Assembly: GCF_000190755.2 (NCBI RefSeq)
Contig: NZ_JH109153.1
Coordinates: 248,001 to 312,000, forward strand
DNA: 64,000 nucleotides
DNA from: Methylobacter tundripaludum SV96
Lineage (GTDB): Bacteria > Pseudomonadota > Gammaproteobacteria > Methylococcales > Methylomonadaceae
Direction: 5' to 3'
The notes beneath the pieces were generated by a model. The model was not told the DNA's origin. It did not search any database and was given only the letters and a program-made list of their open reading frames with translations. Of the stretch, positions 41,278 through 61,376 are shown one piece after another. Numbering within the stretch: the first letter of the stretch is position 1; each line of letters begins with the position of its first letter. The translations under genes were made by a program, and so were the position numbers.

Positions 41278-42096
41278 TCAAAGCGGAGACATGACGCCCA
41301 GAACCGGGGCATTACTTTTAAACATCGCCCATACCGGCATGCCGGGCATAAGCGCCAGGCTTTGTACGCTTTGCGGCGTAACCATGGCAACCAGCGTTTC
41401 GCCGCCGGGCAACAAAACAATCACTTCCGCATTCACCTCGTCCTGTTGGACGCGAATCACACTGCATGACAAACGATTACGCGCTGTAAACCGATAGGGA
41501 TCGGAATCGACTGTTAGCGTTATGTCGGCGCTGTTGACCAACAAAACCGCATCGGCGCCGACCTGTAAGCCAAGATCGTTAAGCGACGTCAAGGTTACGG
41601 AGGTAACAACCTGTTCGCCCCCTTTCAATTTCACGCTGACCTCGGCATTCACCGCACCGGCTTGAATCGCGGTAATACAGCCAAAAATCTGGTTACGGGC
41701 GCTGGTTTTAACCACCAGCCGCTGCAACAACAAGACCGTATCCGGGTCGTCGGCGAGACTACGATTGAGCTGATCGAGAAACTGCCGATGCTGTTGTTCC
41801 AAGCGGGTAAACAGCGCCAGCAAAGAGCGTCCGGCCTCGGTTAAACAGGTGCCGCCGCCTTTGCTGCCGCCCGTGGCGGTGCTGACTAATGTTTTCGGTG
41901 CGCCGTTGTTAGCTCTTTCAATAATTTGCCAGGCGCCTTTGTAACTCAAGCCCATCTGCTTGGCGGCCTGATTGATTGAGCCGCTTTGATCTATCGCCCT
42001 TAGCAAGCCGATCATGCGGCTATCCAGTCCGACTAACCGCAATTCGCCATCGACCCAGGCTGTTGAAATATTGTTGTGGTTTAAGCTGTCAGCCAT
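41278..42096 (-). CDS. modE: Molybdate-responsive regulator ModE
   Basis: A 272-residue transcription factor. Residues 20-90 form a LysR-like winged helix (SINQAAKQMGLSYKGAWQII); two Mop/TOBE domains follow (about 128-195 and 200-268; TSARNQIFG, TARNRLSCS) and bind molybdate. The molybdate-bound dimer binds inverted repeats near mod promoters. It is divergent from the molybdate operon, and a matching operator lies at 42322-42355. Confidence 0.95.
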   Translation of the reverse strand: MADSLNHNNISTAWVDGELRLVGLDSRMIGLLRAIDQSGSINQAAKQMGLSYKGAWQIIERANNGAPKTLVSTATGGSKGGGTCLTEAGRSLLALFTRLEQQHRQFLDQLNRSLADDPDTVLLLQRLVVKTSARNQIFGCITAIQAGAVNAEVSVKLKGGEQVVTSVTLTSLNDLGLQVGADAVLLVNSADITLTVDSDPYRFTARNRLSCSVIRVQQDEVNAEVIVLLPGGETLVAMVTPQSVQSLALMPGMPVWAMFKSNAPVLGVMSPL

Positions 42097-42175
42097 AAAA
42101 GATTGTGTTGCGGTACAAGATTTGAATTAATCATTATTTCCCTAATGGTGTGAGGACAGTGTTAAGTCACTGCAC

Positions 42176-42191
42176 TGTCATTAAGTCTACA
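42176..42191 (+). promoter_or_regulatory. NifA-type upstream site 1 of mod operon
   Basis: TGT-N10-ACA, the consensus for NifA binding, 111 bp before the -24 element. It aligns with the site at 60320-60335 before nifH. Confidence 0.72.
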
Positions 42192-42204
42192 GAACAGAAC
42201 AAAA

Positions 42205-42220
42205 TGTTTGAAACACCACA
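42205..42220 (+). promoter_or_regulatory. NifA-type upstream site 2 of mod operon
   Basis: A second TGT-N10-ACA, 29 bp after the first. The nifH region has a near match (TGT-N10-ACG) at the same spacing. Confidence 0.68.
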
Positions 42221-42287
42221 TTGTTTACTCTTTTGACGCAAAACAATAATCAAAACAATTCAATGATGTAACCGCCATGTTAATAAT

Positions 42288-42303
42288 TGGCACGTCACTT
42301 GCT
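42288..42303 (+). promoter_or_regulatory. Sigma-54 promoter of mod operon
   Basis: TGGCACGTCACTTGCT fits the sigma-54 consensus TGGCACG-N4-TTGCT without mismatch. Transcription should start near 42314. The 100 bases upstream align closely with the nifH promoter region. Confidence 0.85.
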
Positions 42304-42321
42304 CTAAGGAACATTGTCACC

Positions 42322-42355
42322 AACAACGTTATGTACTTTGATACATAACGTTGTT
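42322..42355. promoter_or_regulatory. ModE operator
   Basis: A perfect inverted repeat with 14-bp arms (AACAACGTTATGTA / TACATAACGTTGTT) and a 6-bp spacer, matching the CGnTATnTA-N6-TAnATAnCG pattern of ModE sites. Placed at about +8 to +41, it suits repression by road-block. Confidence 0.88.
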
Positions 42356-42458
42356 AAACTGGAGCCGTGTCTTATTTTTAGTTTTCCCGAATAAGACGCT
42401 GTATACATCGACGAATCAGCGTCGATGTGAACATTATAATTACAATTATAGGTCATTG

Positions 42459-43964
42459 ATGATGCGAAGAAAATCTTTTACCGGCGTTACTGTTAACCAT
42501 ACACTCAGTTTAATAGTCGCCAGCGGTTTTTGCATGGGCGCCAACAACGCTATTCAGGCCGCCGAAAAGAAAACTTACACCAAACCCCCGTTTGCCGCTT
42601 TTTCCAGCCAAATGTCTGATCCTTTACTCGGTTCGGACAAATACGAAAAACCGGTCTGGAATCTGCACGATACACTGAACCTACCGAAATGGCTGTCTCT
42701 GTCGGTGGAACAGCGCACCCGCTACGAAACCATGGACGGCAGTTTCAAAGCCGGAGGTAAAGGCGGCGACCAACAAATTCCGTTGCAAACCGACGTATTC
42801 CTGGAGGCGCGCTTCAATCACCTACGCGCTGGAGCCGAGTTTCTGGATGCACGGCAGTTCGGCTCCGATAGCGGCTCCGGGATCAATAACACCCACGTAG
42901 ACGAGGCTGACTTTATCCAGGGTTATCTGGCCTGGGCCGATCAGAACTTAGCCTACAGCGGTCTGGGAGCGGAAGTCATCGTCGGTCGTCAATCGCTTAA
43001 TTTCGGTAGTCGCCGGTTGATTGCCAGAAACGCGATGCGCAACACCATCAATAGTTTCGACGGCATACGGCTGCGTTTGCTCGATTATAACAACTGGCAA
43101 TTCAATGCTTTTGTGACCAAACCGGTCGGTCGCTATCCGAATAACTCGGCGCAACTTCTTGATGGATTCCACAGTTTCGATGAACCGGAATACCAAACCT
43201 GGTTTTCCGGCGGAATCCTGGAAAAATACGACATCGCCTGGGGCATTAATGCCGAATTGTATTTGTACCATTTGGACGAAGGCGACCGCAACCGCAGCCA
43301 GACTGCCAACCGCCGTTATTTCACGCCCGGCATGCGCTTTTACATGAAACCGGCCAAGGGCGCATTCGATTTTCAAACCGAAACCATCGGCCAATTCGGC
43401 ACGGTGCGTTCATCGACCGCCGCCAACAATGGCACGGATTTGGACCATTCCGCCTGGTATCAACACCTGGATGCCGGTTACACCTTTGATATTCCCTGGT
43501 CGCCGCGTTTGGCGCTGGAATACGATTACGCCAGCGGCGATCACGACCCCAACGATAGAAAAGATCAGCGTTTCGATACTCTGTATGGCGCGCGGCGCTT
43601 CGAGTTCGGTGCAACCGGCATTTACGGCGCCTTTGCCCGCAGCAATATCAATACGCCGGGCTTGCGCTTAACCGCCGCGCCGCGAAGCGATGTGCAGCTT
43701 GGCCTCAGTCACCGGCTCTACTGGCTGGCCGAGGATAAGGACAGTTGGACCTCAGCCAATCTGCGCGATACCACGGGTAGAACCGATAACTTTATCGGCC
43801 AGCAACTCGAACTGACAGCTCGCTGGGATTTCAACAGCAGCCTGAATTTCGAAACCAGCTGGGCACATCTGTTCAAAGACACTTTCGCCAAGGAAACCGC
43901 CAATGCGCCAACTAATAAGAATGACGTCAATTATGTCTATGTACAAAGCATGTTGCGTTTTTGA
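42459..43964 (+). CDS. Outer-membrane porin, alginate-export family
   Basis: A 501-residue beta-barrel protein of the alginate-export (AlgE-like) family. A signal sequence covers about residues 1-35, ending near AIQAAE. Alternating strands follow and the chain ends in YVQSMLRF, with the terminal Phe typical of outer-membrane barrels. The start at 42459 (or 42462) has AGG upstream; the frame extends further but only across the ModE operator. As first gene of the mod operon it probably lets molybdate across the outer membrane, not alginate. Confidence 0.8.
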   Translation: MMRRKSFTGVTVNHTLSLIVASGFCMGANNAIQAAEKKTYTKPPFAAFSSQMSDPLLGSDKYEKPVWNLHDTLNLPKWLSLSVEQRTRYETMDGSFKAGGKGGDQQIPLQTDVFLEARFNHLRAGAEFLDARQFGSDSGSGINNTHVDEADFIQGYLAWADQNLAYSGLGAEVIVGRQSLNFGSRRLIARNAMRNTINSFDGIRLRLLDYNNWQFNAFVTKPVGRYPNNSAQLLDGFHSFDEPEYQTWFSGGILEKYDIAWGINAELYLYHLDEGDRNRSQTANRRYFTPGMRFYMKPAKGAFDFQTETIGQFGTVRSSTAANNGTDLDHSAWYQHLDAGYTFDIPWSPRLALEYDYASGDHDPNDRKDQRFDTLYGARRFEFGATGIYGAFARSNINTPGLRLTAAPRSDVQLGLSHRLYWLAEDKDSWTSANLRDTTGRTDNFIGQQLELTARWDFNSSLNFETSWAHLFKDTFAKETANAPTNKNDVNYVYVQSMLRF

Positions 43965-43979
43965 CGGATTGATGAGCCG

Positions 43980-44765
43980 ATGAAAACAGATAAGCTGAGC
44001 GTATTCGGCAGCGGAGCCATTATCGGCACATTGGGCGGCCTGATTGGACTGGGCGGCGCGGAGTTTCGCCTGCCCTTATTAATTGGGCCGTTCGGCTTCG
44101 CCGCCCTGGAAGCCGTTATTGTCAATAAAGCGATAAGTCTTATTGTCGTGGCCTCGGCGCTGCCATTCAGGATGGGAACAGTCCCGCTCAATGAGCTGGC
44201 GGCACATTGGAGCATAATTCTGAACCTGTTGGCAGGAAGTCTGTTAGGCGCGTGGTTCGGGGCTGGCTGGGCGATAAAGCTAAAAACCGAAAGCTTTTAC
44301 AAAGTCATCGCCGTGTTATTGGCGGCAATAGCCTTGTTGCTTGTATTCGGCCATAACCCGGCAAACGCAAGCCTGCCACCGCTTTCCGGCGCGCCTCAAG
44401 TTGCCGCCGGTGTGCTCGCGGGTTTTGGCATAGGCGTGGTCGCCTCGTTGTTGGGCGTCGCGGGCGGAGAGCTGCTGATTCCCACGCTGGTATTGCTATT
44501 CGGCACCGACATCAAGCTTGCCGGGAGCTTGTCGTTGGCGGTCAGCCTGCCCACCATACTGACCGGCTTCGCCCGCTACAGCACCGACCGGAGTTTCGCG
44601 GTGCTGGGCCGGAACCGTGACTTTGCGCTGGCGATGGCTGCCGGATCACTATTTGGCGCTTTCTTGGGCGGCCAGTTGCTCGGAATGATTCCGGCAGACG
44701 TATTACTGCCGTCATTGGCGTTGATATTGGCGATCTCGGCGATTAAGGTTTGGCGGCATGGATAA
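43980..44765 (+). CDS. TSUP family (TauE/SafE-like) permease
   Basis: A 261-residue inner-membrane protein with about eight helices and the paired glycine-rich motifs GLIGLGGAEFRLPLL and SLLGVAGGELLIPTL of the TSUP family, which moves small anions such as sulfite. It starts 15 bp after the porin gene and precedes modA. Its place suggests transport of molybdate or of a competing oxyanion, but the substrate cannot be read from sequence. Confidence 0.85.
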   Translation: MKTDKLSVFGSGAIIGTLGGLIGLGGAEFRLPLLIGPFGFAALEAVIVNKAISLIVVASALPFRMGTVPLNELAAHWSIILNLLAGSLLGAWFGAGWAIKLKTESFYKVIAVLLAAIALLLVFGHNPANASLPPLSGAPQVAAGVLAGFGIGVVASLLGVAGGELLIPTLVLLFGTDIKLAGSLSLAVSLPTILTGFARYSTDRSFAVLGRNRDFALAMAAGSLFGAFLGGQLLGMIPADVLLPSLALILAISAIKVWRHG

Positions 44766-44868: not shown

Positions 44869-45639
44869 ATGTTACATAATCGTTTTTTTCGCTCTATCCT
44901 CGCCGCATGGCTGCTTTTAATCGCTCCTGCAACCTGGGCCGATACGGTGCTGGTTGCAGTAGCTGCAAACTTCACCAAACCGATGACCGAAATCGCCGAG
45001 GCTTTTGAAAAATCTACCGGTCACAGCGCCAAGCTGTCGTTCGGTTCCTCCGGCAAATTCGTCTCCCAAATCGAGAACGGCGCGCCGTTCGAAGTGTTTA
45101 TGGCTGCGGATGCGGAAAACGCGATCAAATTGCAAAATGCAGGGCTGGCGGTGGCCGATACCCGCTTCACCTACGCGCTCGGAAAACTGGTGCTGTGGTC
45201 GGCAACGCCGGGATTGGTCGACGAGCAAGGCCAAATCCTTAGTAAAGACGGGTTCAAACATCTGGCGTTGGCCGATCCGAAACTGGCTCCCTATGGTGCG
45301 GCGGCGCTGGAAGTGTTGAAACATATGGGGCTTTTTGAAAAGCTGCAACCTTTATTTGTGCTGGGCGAAAACATCTCGCAAACCCACCAGTTCGTCAGTA
45401 CCGGCAATGCCGAACTGGGTTTTCTGGCGCTGTCGCAGGTTATCGCCGACGGCAAGATCGGCAGCGGCTCCGGGTGGATCGTACCGGACGACCGCCATGC
45501 GCCAATTCGGCAAGATGCGATATTGCTGAGCAAAGGCGTGGAAAATCCAGCCGCACCGGCACTGCTGCAATTTTTAAAAGCGCCGCAGGCCCAAACGATT
45601 ATCCGTAAATACGGTTACAACCTCCCCAACCAACCTTGA
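44869..45639 (+). CDS. modA: Molybdate-binding protein ModA
   Basis: A 256-residue periplasmic solute-binding protein. The signal peptide ends at ATWA (about residue 24). The mature start VLVAVAANFTKPM and FGSSGKFVSQIENGAPFEVFMAAD are typical of ModA, with Ser residues for oxyanion binding. ATG 44869 has GGAG 7 nt upstream; a TTG at 44857 is less likely. modB begins 4 bp after its stop. Confidence 0.95.
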   Translation: MLHNRFFRSILAAWLLLIAPATWADTVLVAVAANFTKPMTEIAEAFEKSTGHSAKLSFGSSGKFVSQIENGAPFEVFMAADAENAIKLQNAGLAVADTRFTYALGKLVLWSATPGLVDEQGQILSKDGFKHLALADPKLAPYGAAALEVLKHMGLFEKLQPLFVLGENISQTHQFVSTGNAELGFLALSQVIADGKIGSGSGWIVPDDRHAPIRQDAILLSKGVENPAAPALLQFLKAPQAQTIIRKYGYNLPNQP

Positions 45640-45643
45640 AGCC

Positions 45644-46330
45644 ATGTTAAGCGCATCCGATATTGCCACCTTGTGGCTGACATTCAAAGTTGCAGGTTAT
45701 GCCACACTGCTGATGATGTTGCTGGGAACGCCGTTGGCCTGGTGGCTGGCGCGCACTACATCGCGTTGGAAAGGCGTCTGCAACGCGCTGGTGGCCCTAC
45801 CGCTGGTGTTGCCGCCGACCGTGCTGGGCTTCTATCTGCTGGTAATGATGGGGCCGAACGGCGCTATCGGCCGCTTGACCACCGAACTGGGCCTTGGCAC
45901 CTTGCCGTTTACCTTTCCCGGATTGGTGGTGGCATCGGTGCTGTATTCGTTGCCGTTTGTCGTACAACCGTTGCAAACCGCGTTCGCCACGATCGGCGAA
46001 CATCCCCTGGAAGCCGCGGCGACTTTGCGCGCCAGCCCTTTCGATACTTTTTTCAGCGTCGTCGTACCGCTGGCGAAACCCGGATTCATGACCGCCGCTA
46101 TCTTAGGCTTTGCCCATACCGTCGGCGAATTCGGCGTGGTATTGATGGTCGGCGGCAATATTCCCGACAAAACCCGCGTGGTGTCGGTGCAAATCTACAA
46201 TCATGTCGAAGCCCTGGAATACAGCGAAGCCCACTGGTTGGCGGGCTGTTTGCTGTTGTTCTCGTTTAGCGTATTGCTGGTGCTGTACACCGCGCTGAAA
46301 ACACATCCCGTCGCTCACCCGCTTAAGTGA
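45644..46330 (+). CDS. modB: Molybdate ABC permease ModB
   Basis: A 228-residue inner-membrane permease with five to six helices and the EAA loop (EAAATLRASPFDTFFSVVVPLAKPG) that docks on ModC. It begins almost directly behind modA and runs up to modC, a standard modABC order. Confidence 0.96.
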   Translation: MLSASDIATLWLTFKVAGYATLLMMLLGTPLAWWLARTTSRWKGVCNALVALPLVLPPTVLGFYLLVMMGPNGAIGRLTTELGLGTLPFTFPGLVVASVLYSLPFVVQPLQTAFATIGEHPLEAAATLRASPFDTFFSVVVPLAKPGFMTAAILGFAHTVGEFGVVLMVGGNIPDKTRVVSVQIYNHVEALEYSEAHWLAGCLLLFSFSVLLVLYTALKTHPVAHPLK

Positions 46331-46335
46331 TAAAC

Positions 46336-47463
46336 ATGACAACAATCCAAGCCCGCTTCCAACTCGACTACGGCGACTTTAAACTGGACGTCGATTTAAA
46401 ACTGCCCGGCACCGGCATTACGGTGTTGTTCGGCCATTCCGGCTCCGGCAAAACCACCCTGCTGCGCTGCATTGCGGGACTGCAACAGGCGCCGCTGGGT
46501 TTCCTTGAAATCAACGGCCATATTTGGCAGGACAGCGAGCGCAACCTGTTCCTGCCTACTTATAAACGGCCGCTGGGCTATGTGTTTCAGGAAGCCAACC
46601 TGTTTCCGCATTTGACGGTACGGGAGAATCTTCACTACGGTTTGAAGCGGATCAAACACAATTCAGGCACGGTCAAACTGGAGCAAACCCTTGAACTGCT
46701 GGGCATCAGTCATTTACTTGAGCGCATGCCCGGACACTTGTCCGGCGGCGAACGGCAACGGGTCGCCATCGCTCGGGCCTTGGCGCTTAATCCTGAAGTC
46801 CTGCTGATGGACGAACCGCTGGCGTCGCTGGATTTCAAACGGAAGCAGGAAATCCTGCCGTTTTTAAGCCGCCTGCATCAGCAACTGGATATTCCGGTGC
46901 TGTACGTCACCCATTCCCAGCAGGAAGTCGCGCAACTGGCCGACACGCTGGTGATCATGGAAGACGGTCGGGCGCTGGCTTCGGGGCCGCTATCGGAAAC
47001 GCAAAGCCGTCTCGACGTGCCGCTGGCGCAAGATCGGGAAGCCGCCACGGTTTGGCAGGCGGCCGTCGCCGAACATGAAGCCGACTATCATCTGACCCGC
47101 GTCGCCTTTGCCGGAGGTTCACTCAGCCTACCGGCGGTCGATGCAGAGGTTGGCACACCGTTACGGGTACAGATTTACGCCCGCGATGTCAGCATCGCCC
47201 TTGAAGCGCCAACCGCCACCAGCATACTCAATGTACTGCCCGCGACCATCACCGGCATCGCCGACGGTCGCGACGGCCAGAGCGTAGTGCAGTTACGACT
47301 GCCAAGGATGGCGGAAGCGTCGCAATCGGTAGGGAACCGATGCGACCAGGTCGGCGATCAAGCGCTGCTGGCGCACATCACCCGCAAATCGGCGCTGTTG
47401 CTGGGTTTGCAGATCGGCATGGCGGTTTACGTGCAGATCAAGGGTACATCACTATTAAATTAA
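46336..47463 (+). CDS. modC: Molybdate ABC transporter ATPase ModC
   Basis: A 375-residue ATPase that drives ModB. Walker A GHSGSGKTT, signature LSGGERQRVAIARA, Walker B LLMDEPLASLD and the switch His in LYVTHSQ are all intact. The C-terminal third is a TOBE/Mop regulatory domain. The ATG at 46336 is chosen; a GTG at 46327 overlapping the modB stop is possible. Confidence 0.95.
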   Translation: MTTIQARFQLDYGDFKLDVDLKLPGTGITVLFGHSGSGKTTLLRCIAGLQQAPLGFLEINGHIWQDSERNLFLPTYKRPLGYVFQEANLFPHLTVRENLHYGLKRIKHNSGTVKLEQTLELLGISHLLERMPGHLSGGERQRVAIARALALNPEVLLMDEPLASLDFKRKQEILPFLSRLHQQLDIPVLYVTHSQQEVAQLADTLVIMEDGRALASGPLSETQSRLDVPLAQDREAATVWQAAVAEHEADYHLTRVAFAGGSLSLPAVDAEVGTPLRVQIYARDVSIALEAPTATSILNVLPATITGIADGRDGQSVVQLRLPRMAEASQSVGNRCDQVGDQALLAHITRKSALLLGLQIGMAVYVQIKGTSLLN

Positions 47464-47484: not shown

Positions 47485-47913
47485 ATGAAAGCAAGTGCTC
47501 GTAATCAGTTTGTAGGTACCGTCACTGAAGTGCTCATCGGCGCGGTCAATGCCGAAGTTCATGTCGGCTTAAAGGGCGGCGAAACCATCGTCGCCTCCAT
47601 TACCAAGGAATCCGTCGAAAAGCTGGCGATCAAAACCGGCATTGAAGTTATCGCCCTGGTCAAAGCCCCGCAAATCATCATCGTTACCGATTTCGGCGGC
47701 TACCGGCTTTCGGCGCGCAACCAGCTGCAAGGCATGATAACCCAGGTCAAACCCGGCGCGGTCAACGCCGAAGTCGATATCGAGTTAAAAGGCGGCGAGC
47801 AGGTTGCCGCCACCGTGACTAACGACAGCGTCGAAGCTTTGGGCTTGAGCAAAGGCAAACCGGCCACTGCGGTGTTCAAGGCCGGCGCGGTGATTCTGGC
47901 TGTCGCCGGTTGA
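47485..47913 (+). CDS. modG: Molbindin with two Mop domains (ModG type)
   Basis: A 142-residue cytoplasmic molybdate-binding protein made of two tandem Mop domains (about 1-68 and 72-140), each with SARNQ near the start and a GAVNAEV motif. Multimers store or buffer molybdate, a useful function when nitrogenase is being made. CCGGAG precedes the ATG, 21 bp after modC. The domains resemble those of ModE in this window. Confidence 0.93.
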   Translation: MKASARNQFVGTVTEVLIGAVNAEVHVGLKGGETIVASITKESVEKLAIKTGIEVIALVKAPQIIIVTDFGGYRLSARNQLQGMITQVKPGAVNAEVDIELKGGEQVAATVTNDSVEALGLSKGKPATAVFKAGAVILAVAG

Positions 47914-48220: not shown

Positions 48221-49390
48221 ATGCTTCTGGAAATGAATGTAAAACTGCGCCGGGGACATTTCGACCTGACCACGCGCCTGTCGATCAGCGACTCCAGCGT
48301 CGGCCTGTTCGGCAAATCCGGTGCCGGTAAAAGCACGGTGCTCGGTTTGATCGCCGGTACCATTCAACCGCAAAGCGGACATATCGTGCTGGACGGCAAA
48401 ATCATGTTCGACAGCCGCAAAGGCATCATGATGCCGCGCGAACAGCGTCCTGTAGGCGCGGTATTACAGATCGACTGTGCCGATTCGGCCGAAACCGTTC
48501 GCGACAACCTGACCGCCACCTATAACCGCACGCTGAAACACCGCCGCATTTTCAAACGGGATTTTTTAATCGAGCTTTTGGAACTGGGCCCTATCCTCAA
48601 TCATGTCATCGAACTGCTTTCCGCCGGTGAACGCCAGCGGGTGGCGCTGGCCCGCTCGCTGCTGAAATCGCCGCGGCTGTTGTTACTGGATGAAACTTTT
48701 GCCGCGATCGGCAACGGTTACCGAATGCAACTGCTGCCGATTCTGAAACGCTTGCAGCATGAGCTGGGCTTGCCGGTGCTGTATGCCAGCCAATCCTTGG
48801 GAGAAATTCTGGAGCTGACCGACCGGCTGATCGTACTCGAACAAGGCAAAGTGCTGCACAACGGCTCGTTGCTTGATGTCGCCAAACAGCAAGGCATGCT
48901 GCGCTATCTGGGCATCCGCCAGATCGACAACATTTTGCCGGTGACCGTCCGCCGCCACGACTATGTGTCCGGTTGCAGCCAGGCCCATAGCTTCGGCCTG
49001 CCGCTGACCTTGCCGCTACGGCCGCATTTAGTTGTCGGCAGTGAAGCGCAAGTGTCGATACGCGCCAACGACATAGCCTTGTCGCGTAGTTATATCGACG
49101 GCATATCGATACAAAATCAAATCAAGGGCCGAATCTGCGCGCTGATTCCCAGCGGCGAAAGCCTGATCGTGCAGGTCGATTGCGGCACTACGCTGCTGGC
49201 CGAGATTACGCCGGGCGCATGCCGGGACATGGCCTTGCAGGAGGGCGAGGTCATCTATTGCCTGATCAAAACCCATTCCATTGCCTACCTCACCGAACTT
49301 GACGCCCTGCCCTATCAACGGGTGATCAGCCATGGCGACGGCCATTATTATCTCGATACCGCCGGACCGACTAGCGACTTATTGCCTTGA
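48221..49390 (+). CDS. Degenerate ModC-like ATPase with TOBE domain
   Basis: A 389-residue ModC paralogue. Walker A (GKSGAGKST) and signature (LSAGERQRVALAR) are intact and Walker B keeps its Glu (LLLLDETF). However, the D-loop reads AAIG where SLD is expected, and the switch-loop His is replaced by Gln (LYASQS in place of LYVTHS). The C-terminal part resembles the TOBE domain. It has no permease of its own. ATP hydrolysis is doubtful; a molybdate-sensing or regulatory part is possible, as is decay. Confidence 0.8.
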   Translation: MLLEMNVKLRRGHFDLTTRLSISDSSVGLFGKSGAGKSTVLGLIAGTIQPQSGHIVLDGKIMFDSRKGIMMPREQRPVGAVLQIDCADSAETVRDNLTATYNRTLKHRRIFKRDFLIELLELGPILNHVIELLSAGERQRVALARSLLKSPRLLLLDETFAAIGNGYRMQLLPILKRLQHELGLPVLYASQSLGEILELTDRLIVLEQGKVLHNGSLLDVAKQQGMLRYLGIRQIDNILPVTVRRHDYVSGCSQAHSFGLPLTLPLRPHLVVGSEAQVSIRANDIALSRSYIDGISIQNQIKGRICALIPSGESLIVQVDCGTTLLAEITPGACRDMALQEGEVIYCLIKTHSIAYLTELDALPYQRVISHGDGHYYLDTAGPTSDLLP

Positions 49391-50029
49391 ATAACCCGCC
49401 GCCTGATCGATGCGGCCTTTCGCGAAGCGGGCATAACCCCCAACATCATGCTGAAAACCGACTCGGTGTTCGCGTTGTACGCCTATGTTCGTAGCGCGGG
49501 ACTATACAGCGCGGTCGAGCAGGAGCTTAACCTGACCTATCACTCCAGTCTGGAAAGCCTGACCAAAGTGTGCGGCGTCGTGACCTTAAACTGTCCGCTG
49601 CATCCTGAAACCGAGCATATGCTCAACGAGCAGACGCTGAAAAACTTCAAACGCGGCGCTTACCTGATCAACACCGCACGCGGCAAGCTATGCAACCGCG
49701 ATGCGATTGTCGATGCGCTGGAAAGCGGTCAATTGGCGGGTTACGCGGGTGATGTCTGGTTCCCGCAACCGGCGCCCAACGACCACCCTTGGCGCACCAT
49801 GCCGAATCATGGCATGACACCGCACATTTCGGGCACCAGCCTGTCGGCACAGACACGTTACGCTGCCGGTACCCGCGAGATTCTGGAGTGCTACTTTGAA
49901 GGCCGCCCCATCCGCGATGAATACCTGATTGTCCAAGGTGGTCAGCTGGCCGGTGTCGGTGCGCATTCCTATAGTAAAGGCAATGCCACCGGCGGATCGG
50001 AAGAAGCCGCCCAGTTCAAGAAGGATTGA
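49391..50029 (+). pseudogene. LysR-regulator fragment joined to formate dehydrogenase C-terminus
   Basis: An open frame follows the ModC-like stop directly. Its first 40 codons (RRLIDAAFREAGITPN...) resemble the effector domain of a LysR regulator. From about 49514 it switches to the C-terminal 40% of NAD-dependent formate dehydrogenase (EQELNLTYH ... NTARGKLC ... PHISGTSLSAQTRYAAGTREILE ... GSEEAAQFKKD). The catalytic Arg and His are kept, but the Rossmann NAD motif and the N-terminal substrate residues are gone, so it cannot be an active dehydrogenase. A 193-residue product from ATG 49448 could still be made. Confidence 0.82.
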
Positions 50030-60319: not shown

Positions 60320-60335
60320 TGTTACTAAGCTTACA
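60320..60335 (+). promoter_or_regulatory. NifA-type upstream site of nifH
   Basis: TGT-N10-ACA, 111 bp before the -24 element, a normal distance for NifA. A near match (TGT-N10-ACG) lies 29 bp further at 60349-60364. Confidence 0.82.
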
Positions 60336-60431
60336 GAACATAACAAAATGTTTGAAAGACAACGTTGCTTACGCTTTGCCGAAACAACAATAATCAATAC
60401 AATTCAATGACATAAATACAACAAAAGCAAT

Positions 60432-60447
60432 TGGCACACCCCTTGCT
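60432..60447 (+). promoter_or_regulatory. Sigma-54 promoter of nifHDK
   Basis: TGGCACACCCCTTGCT matches the -24/-12 consensus with GG-N10-GC. It lies 47 nt before the nifH ATG. Confidence 0.9.

Positions 60448-60482: not shown

Positions 60483-61376
<894 letters not shown>

Follow-up and report, generated by a model that had tools for sequence, protein, structure and literature searches.

The molybdate uptake (mod) operon of the methanotroph Methylobacter tundripaludum SV96 is preceded by a stretch of DNA that reads as a nifH promoter copied into this place, directly before a predicted ModE operator. We consider it likely that NifA and sigma54 drive the operon from this inserted promoter, and that molybdenum-loaded ModE blocks it through the older operator. 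With this arrangement, production of the uptake system is predicted to be confined to cells that are fixing nitrogen and short of molybdenum.

Organization of the mod Locus

The window, the whole stretch of DNA that was analysed, comprises 64,000 nucleotides of a 4.85-Mb genome, and all coordinates given here refer to it. The operon lies on the forward strand and starts with a porin gene of the Alginate_exp family (42462-43964; PF13372, 1.5e-58), followed by genes for a TauE/SafE-type permease (43980-44765; PF01925, 1.4e-27), modA (44869-45639; TIGR01256, 4.1e-70), modB (45644-46330; TIGR02141, 1e-71) and modC (46327-47463; TIGR02142, 4.2e-130), the three mod genes all scoring over their cut-offs. 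The last gene codes for a Mop-type molybdate-binding protein with two Mop/TOBE stretches (47485-47913; TIGR00638, 1.3e-44). Divergently oriented on the reverse strand is modE (41278-42096), coding for a molybdate-responsive repressor with HTH and TOBE/Mop domains. Its product scores over the cut-offs of Mop (TIGR00638, 1.2e-33) and Pfam TOBE (2.1e-27), and matches PRK10676 (ModE, 1.4e-45), ModE_repress (1.2e-25) and Pfam HTH_1 (5e-5) under their own cut-offs. The nifH gene is found in the same window on the forward strand (60495-61376; TIGR01287, 8.6e-139, over cut-off). A profile search of the genome revealed one protein over the NifA family cut-off (653 bits versus 529), and 13 further matches of about 200 bits or more, all under the cut-off. 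Molybdenum supply during nitrogen fixation is likely critical in this strain, since no AnfG or VnfG gene was found in a search of the genome.

The sequence-only reading had described two TGT-N10-ACA sites and a perfect -24/-12 element ahead of the porin gene, and both descriptions held. The predicted NifA upstream activator sites are located at 42176-42191 (UAS1) and 42205-42220, which places them 29 bp apart, and 112 and 83 bp ahead of the T of the -24 motif. The sigma54 element TTGGCACGTCACTTGCT (42287-42303, forward strand) contains the GG-N10-GC signature and reads TTGGCAC-N5-TTGCT; TTGGCAYN5TTGCT occurs without mismatch at six places in the genome, this being one of them. By the usual geometry of sigma54 promoters, the transcript is predicted to start near 42314, counting from the GC of the -12 motif at 42301-42302.

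The predicted ModE operator at 42322-42355 had been called a perfect palindrome. This applies to its 14-bp arms, which are perfectly complementary, and not to the 6-nt spacer between them, so that 28 of 34 positions are palindromic overall. The operator consists of two inverted CGTTATxTA-type half sites and is conserved before mod in relatives. Its core, CGTTATNTAN6TANATAACG, has a single perfect occurrence in the 4.85-Mb genome, the next best being one place with two mismatches. In E. coli, an operator of the type CGTTATATA-N-TATATAACG allows ModE to repress modABC; there, however, the promoter is of the sigma70 type and is not subject to nitrogen control.

A Probable nifH Promoter Copy in the mod Promoter

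The likeness between the mod promoter and the promoter of nifH (60320-60447, forward strand), the latter with a layout shared by other nifH promoters of the family and representing the source type of the inserted module, had been described as nearly base for base. Indeed, positions 42176-42303 and 60320-60447 are identical at 95 of 128 positions without gaps. A local alignment of the flanked regions scored 159, compared to a mean of 24.4 (SD 3.8, maximum 49) in 2000 dinucleotide shuffles, and to 30 for the best other stretch of the window (350-bp stretches taken each 100 bp, both strands). When the mod promoter was compared with the whole genome, nifH was the sole match at E <= 0.001 (1.2e-20); in the reciprocal search the nifH promoter retrieved mod (3.4e-21), and the next place had an E of 0.82. 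The NifA sites are shared in part: the first nifH site is an exact TGT-N10-ACA, while the second reads TGT-N10-ACG. The distance between UAS1 and the -24 motif is 111-114 in seven of the eight module-bearing Methylobacter mod promoters (the eighth, from G124, is devoid of an exact first site), and a TGT-N10-ACA site is found 110-115 before the -24 motif in 44 of 48 nifH promoters of the family. It is very unlikely that this sigma54 promoter responds to an enhancer-binding protein other than NifA. The 13 NifA-profile matches under the cut-off are what would be expected of other sigma54 activators, but the TGT-N10-ACA sites at nifH spacing and the nifH-derived sequence speak against them.

Profiles of nifH promoters delimit the copy in SV96 to approximately 42156-42321 on the forward strand (E 9e-27 with the family profile and 6e-26 with the genus profile), the profile alignment extending to 42328, into the operator arm. 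The copy, of about 150 bp and comprising the NifA sites, the spacer and the -24/-12 element, is placed before the ModE operator. Homology begins about 20 bp ahead of UAS1 and, in SV96, reaches the edge of the operator; it thus exceeds the functional motifs, covers the spacer between the sites and is specific to nifH. A profile built from 47 nifH promoters, that of SV96 included, was used to search 111 regions, duplicates included. It matched the region ahead of mod in 18 different genomes, each time as a single block 115-165 bp long (E 3e-29 to 6e-6), whereas ten shuffled sets gave no match at E <= 10. Weak matches around the -24/-12 element were also obtained for G057 and G007 (E 8e-4 and 2.5e-3).

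Could NifA, IHF and sigma54 sites have imposed the likeness by convergence, without any copying? The region is rich in motifs and in AT, and an IHF-like block in the spacer could be under selection. Nevertheless, the nifH promoter matches no other place of the genome although other -24/-12 sites exist, homology runs through the spacer and passes the sites on either side, and a displaced element in three relatives (see below) reveals an insertion, all of which makes convergence barely credible.

The proposal that one of the two regions arose from the other is therefore supported, in the direction from nifH to mod, by the nifH-promoter profile, the tree of modules and the displaced element. The argument originally put forward for it fared less well. 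The sequence AACAACGT was indeed present in the nifH leader, as in all 12 Methylobacter nifH leaders inspected, but on the mod side it was found in only one of the eight module-bearing Methylobacter, SV96 itself; before the operator, G120 and G042 share CATTAAC in its place, in an alignment from which the misplaced nifH rows of G128 and G124, lying at contig ends, were dropped. By itself, AACAACGT would be weak evidence of a shared origin.

In module-free genomes, both inside the genus and in other genera, a conserved element (approximately ATTATTTCCC..GAAACAA..TTGTTT) abuts the operator on its modE side. This element is perhaps the modE promoter. In genomes with the module, it was detected upstream of the module in G125 (E 6e-7) and G120 (4e-5) and weakly in G042 (0.03), the best of 950 shuffles reaching 0.23. 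When the profile was built solely from other genera, the values were 7e-5, 7e-4 and 0.08, respectively, versus 0.10 for shuffles. Since the element lies upstream of the module in these relatives, the module was inserted between the modE-side element and the operator, an event that can be read directly in the sequences of G125 and G120 and weakly in that of G042. The element was significant in three of the seven Methylobacter carriers tested, SV96 not among them; in G000, G124 and G130 its first half is visible, which is not significant by itself, and no match to the element profile was obtained in G097. SV96 has a probable remnant at 42125-42147, ending in CATTATTTCCCTAATG at 42132-42147, assigned by alignment with relatives, its profile E being just 0.33, no better than shuffles; the complete element is found in G125 and G120.

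Distribution of the Module among Relatives

The porin was searched for in 121 genomes of the family, 83 of which gave a match at E <= 1e-40, and one upstream region was taken from each of 60 genomes (identity of about 52% or more; weaker matches and the second copies G057b and G118b were left out). The paired promoter proposed for SV96 does occur in relatives: UAS, -24/-12 element and a ModE operator scoring at least 13/16 and lying 15-50 nt past the -24 motif were found together in 10 of the 60 regions, versus 0.0 per set in 40 rounds of shuffling. A NifA-sigma54 pair (UAS and -24/-12, 60-130 bp apart) was present in 14 of 60 regions, with an expectation from shuffles of 0.05. With the presence of nifH defined as a match at E <= 1e-120, the triple architecture was observed in 10 of 45 genomes with nifH and in none of 15 without it (p = 0.054, with relatedness not removed and some of the 15 genomes incomplete). 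The pair alone was not associated with nifH presence (12/45 versus 2/15, p 0.48).

Of 23 Methylobacter genomes, 17 yielded a modE, and 7 of 16 modE upstream regions read carry the full triple. The module is present in 8 of the 17 Methylobacter genomes assessed (G065 being counted from its porin), among them M. tundripaludum OWC-G53F and M. marinus A45, and also in some members of other genera. It was detected in four of four genomes searched of the M. marinus group and, with weaker -24/-12 matches, in Methylomonas WSC-6 and SURF-2, and it is missing from M. psychrophilus Z-0021 and Methylomonas koyamae SM2. The ModE operator stands alone in G129, G083, G128, G121, G122, G110, G131, G132 and G015, in G132 before a Mop-like gene. 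At least five of the nine module-free Methylobacter have nifH or its promoter (G083, G015, G110, G129 and G121), and G083 and G129 are the two nearest relatives of SV96 by RpoB. Since nifH-bearing and nearest Methylobacter relatives go without it, the module is dispensable.

The patchiness of the module would reflect repeated loss or transfer. On an RpoB tree of 30 chosen genomes the module needs at least six changes, and its clustering does not exceed that of shuffled labels (9 changes versus a shuffled mean of 10.2); a porin tree with 54 rows likewise requires at least six changes, and there the label is clustered. The patchy pattern and the RpoB results would suit a module ancestral in the genus and deleted from the module-free Methylobacter. 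This is unlikely, considering that the same element adjoins the operator in module-free genomes in and out of the genus and that deletions would have to recreate this junction exactly.

In a tree of 140 columns, the 18 mod modules formed one clade, with support of 91/89, below the starred level, among mostly Methylobacter nifH promoters. A tree reduced to 95 columns and 14 modules neither recovered this clade (6% of bootstraps) nor rejected it (p 0.34). AU tests against mod modules grouping with their own nifH gave p values of 0.044 for the M. marinus group and 0.011 for Methylomonas G094, the groups having been named post hoc; after removal of the outer columns, the value for the M. marinus group was 0.33. 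Since support drops on removing the outer columns, the claims of a single origin and of transfer are weaker, and transfer between genera is only suggestive. As a tentative scenario, a nifH promoter may have been copied once in a Methylobacter-like ancestor, the cassette then spreading across genera (M. marinus group, Methylomonas), with other lineages having arrived independently at their own versions, some with the operator upstream of the -24 motif.

Other arrangements were observed in the porin upstream regions. In G007, G057 and G059 (loci L065, L071 and L066), a ModE-like palindrome closely precedes a perfect -24/-12 element, from which a few bases separate it, with a UAS 81-122 bp ahead and nifH-profile matches that are weak at most. 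The palindrome of G007 is an exact CGTTATTAC-N6-GTAATAACG, and those of G057 and G059 have one change in the left arm; the G007 stretch also reads as a sigma70 promoter, TTGATT-N17-TATAAT. NifA-sigma54-ModE combinations without a nifH-profile match are found in G012 (L093) and G026 (L070), the latter with a ModE-like site immediately upstream of the -24 motif, and possibly have independent origins.

The Operator and a Putative Ancestral sigma70-like Promoter

The porin-mod operons of the methanotroph family mostly carry just a ModE operator, which overlaps a sigma70-like promoter. In most of these ModE-only genomes, a TATAAT/TATACT-like hexamer follows the operator and TTTACT, read by eye, lies 16 nt upstream inside the left arm, an arrangement that would represent a sigma70-like promoter under ModE control with TTTACT as -35 and TATAAT/TATACT as -10. 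In SV96, TAAACT (42355-42360, forward strand) is found one base off the position of the sigma70-like -10 of relatives (TATACT/TATAAT/TAAACT in the alignment), and is probably weak as a -10.

We compared 63 operators, 44 ModE-only and 19 NifA-type, the latter including G082, which lacks an exact UAS, and G012, where the profile gives no sign of a nifH origin for the module; operators below 13/16, four genomes with the operator upstream and 18 named loci taken as duplicates were omitted. A T at position 7 of the left arm, matching TTTACT, is found in 37 of 44 ModE-only versus 1 of 19 NifA-type operators (Fisher 3e-9), and a -10 with at least a 5/6 match occurs in 26 of 44 versus 2 of 19. Fully symmetric 9-bp arms were found in 0 of 44 versus 5 of 19. 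Many of these promoters share descent, and the counts are not corrected for kinship. Decay of the -35 and -10 together with greater operator symmetry fits a relaxed sigma70 constraint once NifA had taken over. For Methylobacter, a weakening of the -10 from TATACT to TAAACT by the NifA module was considered and dropped, as members of the genus without the module have TAAACT too.

In SV96, TAAACT may still serve a residual sigma70 promoter, and control would then be partly independent of NifA. In a dual promoter of this kind, a sigma70 promoter under ModE would supply molybdenum for other molybdoenzymes and the NifA promoter would boost expression during nitrogen fixation, ModE repressing both. 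The -10-like TAAACT kept after the operator and the perfect TATAAT that G012 retains alongside its NifA-sigma54 elements are in its favour; against it, 18 of 19 NifA-type promoters have lost the T of the -35-like element and, as stated, few keep a good -10. We regard a dual promoter as conceivable rather than probable, bearing in mind that it is a milder version of the explanation preferred here and that the odds of the two overlap.

Predicted Regulation and Comparison with Known Systems

Control by NifA/sigma54 plus ModE, as initially proposed, is supported by the conserved triple architecture, the encoded NifA, the divergent modE and the lack of AnfG/VnfG matches in the genome, all of them sequence data. 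From these elements we infer protein binding, start site, roadblock and regulatory logic as follows. Under nitrogen-fixing conditions, the operon would be transcribed from the NifA-activated sigma54 promoter, a copy of a Methylobacter-type nifH promoter. Molybdate-loaded ModE, bound to the older operator at about +8 to +41 of the sigma54 transcript, would silence the porin-TauE-modABC-mop operon; at this position it would leave binding of sigma54-RNA polymerase to the -24/-12 element unaffected and obstruct open complex formation or early elongation as a roadblock. In the ancestral state, the operator would have overlapped the sigma70-like promoter, and the insertion would have split it from the modE-side element and brought the operon into the NifA regulon with ModE control kept.

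A gate turned on by NifA and off by ModE-type regulators is itself already known from the morAB promoter of Rhodobacter capsulatus, where NifA/RpoN activate and MopA/MopB repress (PMC6925177). Like mod here, morAB combines ModABC-like transporter genes, NifA/RpoN activation, molybdenum repression via ModE-type regulators and a divergent partner gene; it differs in being alphaproteobacterial, and an origin from a nifH promoter is not mentioned in the portion of that source consulted (PMC6925177). In the same account, morAB is a modABC paralogue whose deletion left nitrogenase activity unaffected (PMC6925177). The mopA-modABC genes of R. capsulatus, as described there, also couple activation by nitrogen starvation to ModE-type repression of molybdate uptake, but their activator is NtrC with the housekeeping sigma factor, not NifA with sigma54 (PMC6925177). 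NifA-regulated modABC operons, with NifA sites ahead of molybdate transport genes as here, have been predicted in Bradyrhizobium, Rhizobium NGR234 and Gluconacetobacter; neither a combination with ModE nor promoter ancestry is discussed for these alphaproteobacteria in the sections consulted (PMC4999443). In Azoarcus, mod genes are induced under nitrogen fixation (PMC8467165, PMC3916325). In the portions of the open-licence literature covered, we found no precedent in a methanotroph and no description of a nifH promoter inserted ahead of mod genes. To the extent of these searches, the derivation from nifH, the patchy occurrence across genomes and the versions of possibly independent origin are new, and the double control seems to have arisen in its own way in this methanotroph.

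The locus offers a before-and-after view of a metal-uptake operon joining the nitrogen-fixation regulon by insertion of a whole promoter beside an existing metal operator, and relatives with and without the module permit direct tests. This wiring is relevant to nitrogen fixation fed by methane.

Additional Features of the mod Operons

The mod operons of G120, G124 and G065 have porins just about 54-57% identical despite the conserved promoter, and the leading gene of these operons appears to have been exchanged; in G120 and G124 the adjacent modE is conserved as well. Further on in the SV96 window, a second modC-like ATPase is encoded at 48221-49390, scoring 267.6 bits, below the modC cut-off of 285.05, and no additional modA or modB adjoins it among the ORFs inspected. 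It is followed at 49448-50029 by a 193-aa piece of the D-2-hydroxyacid dehydrogenase family that covers only positions 74-178 of the 178 of the profile, which we take to be, perhaps, a truncated formate dehydrogenase gene.
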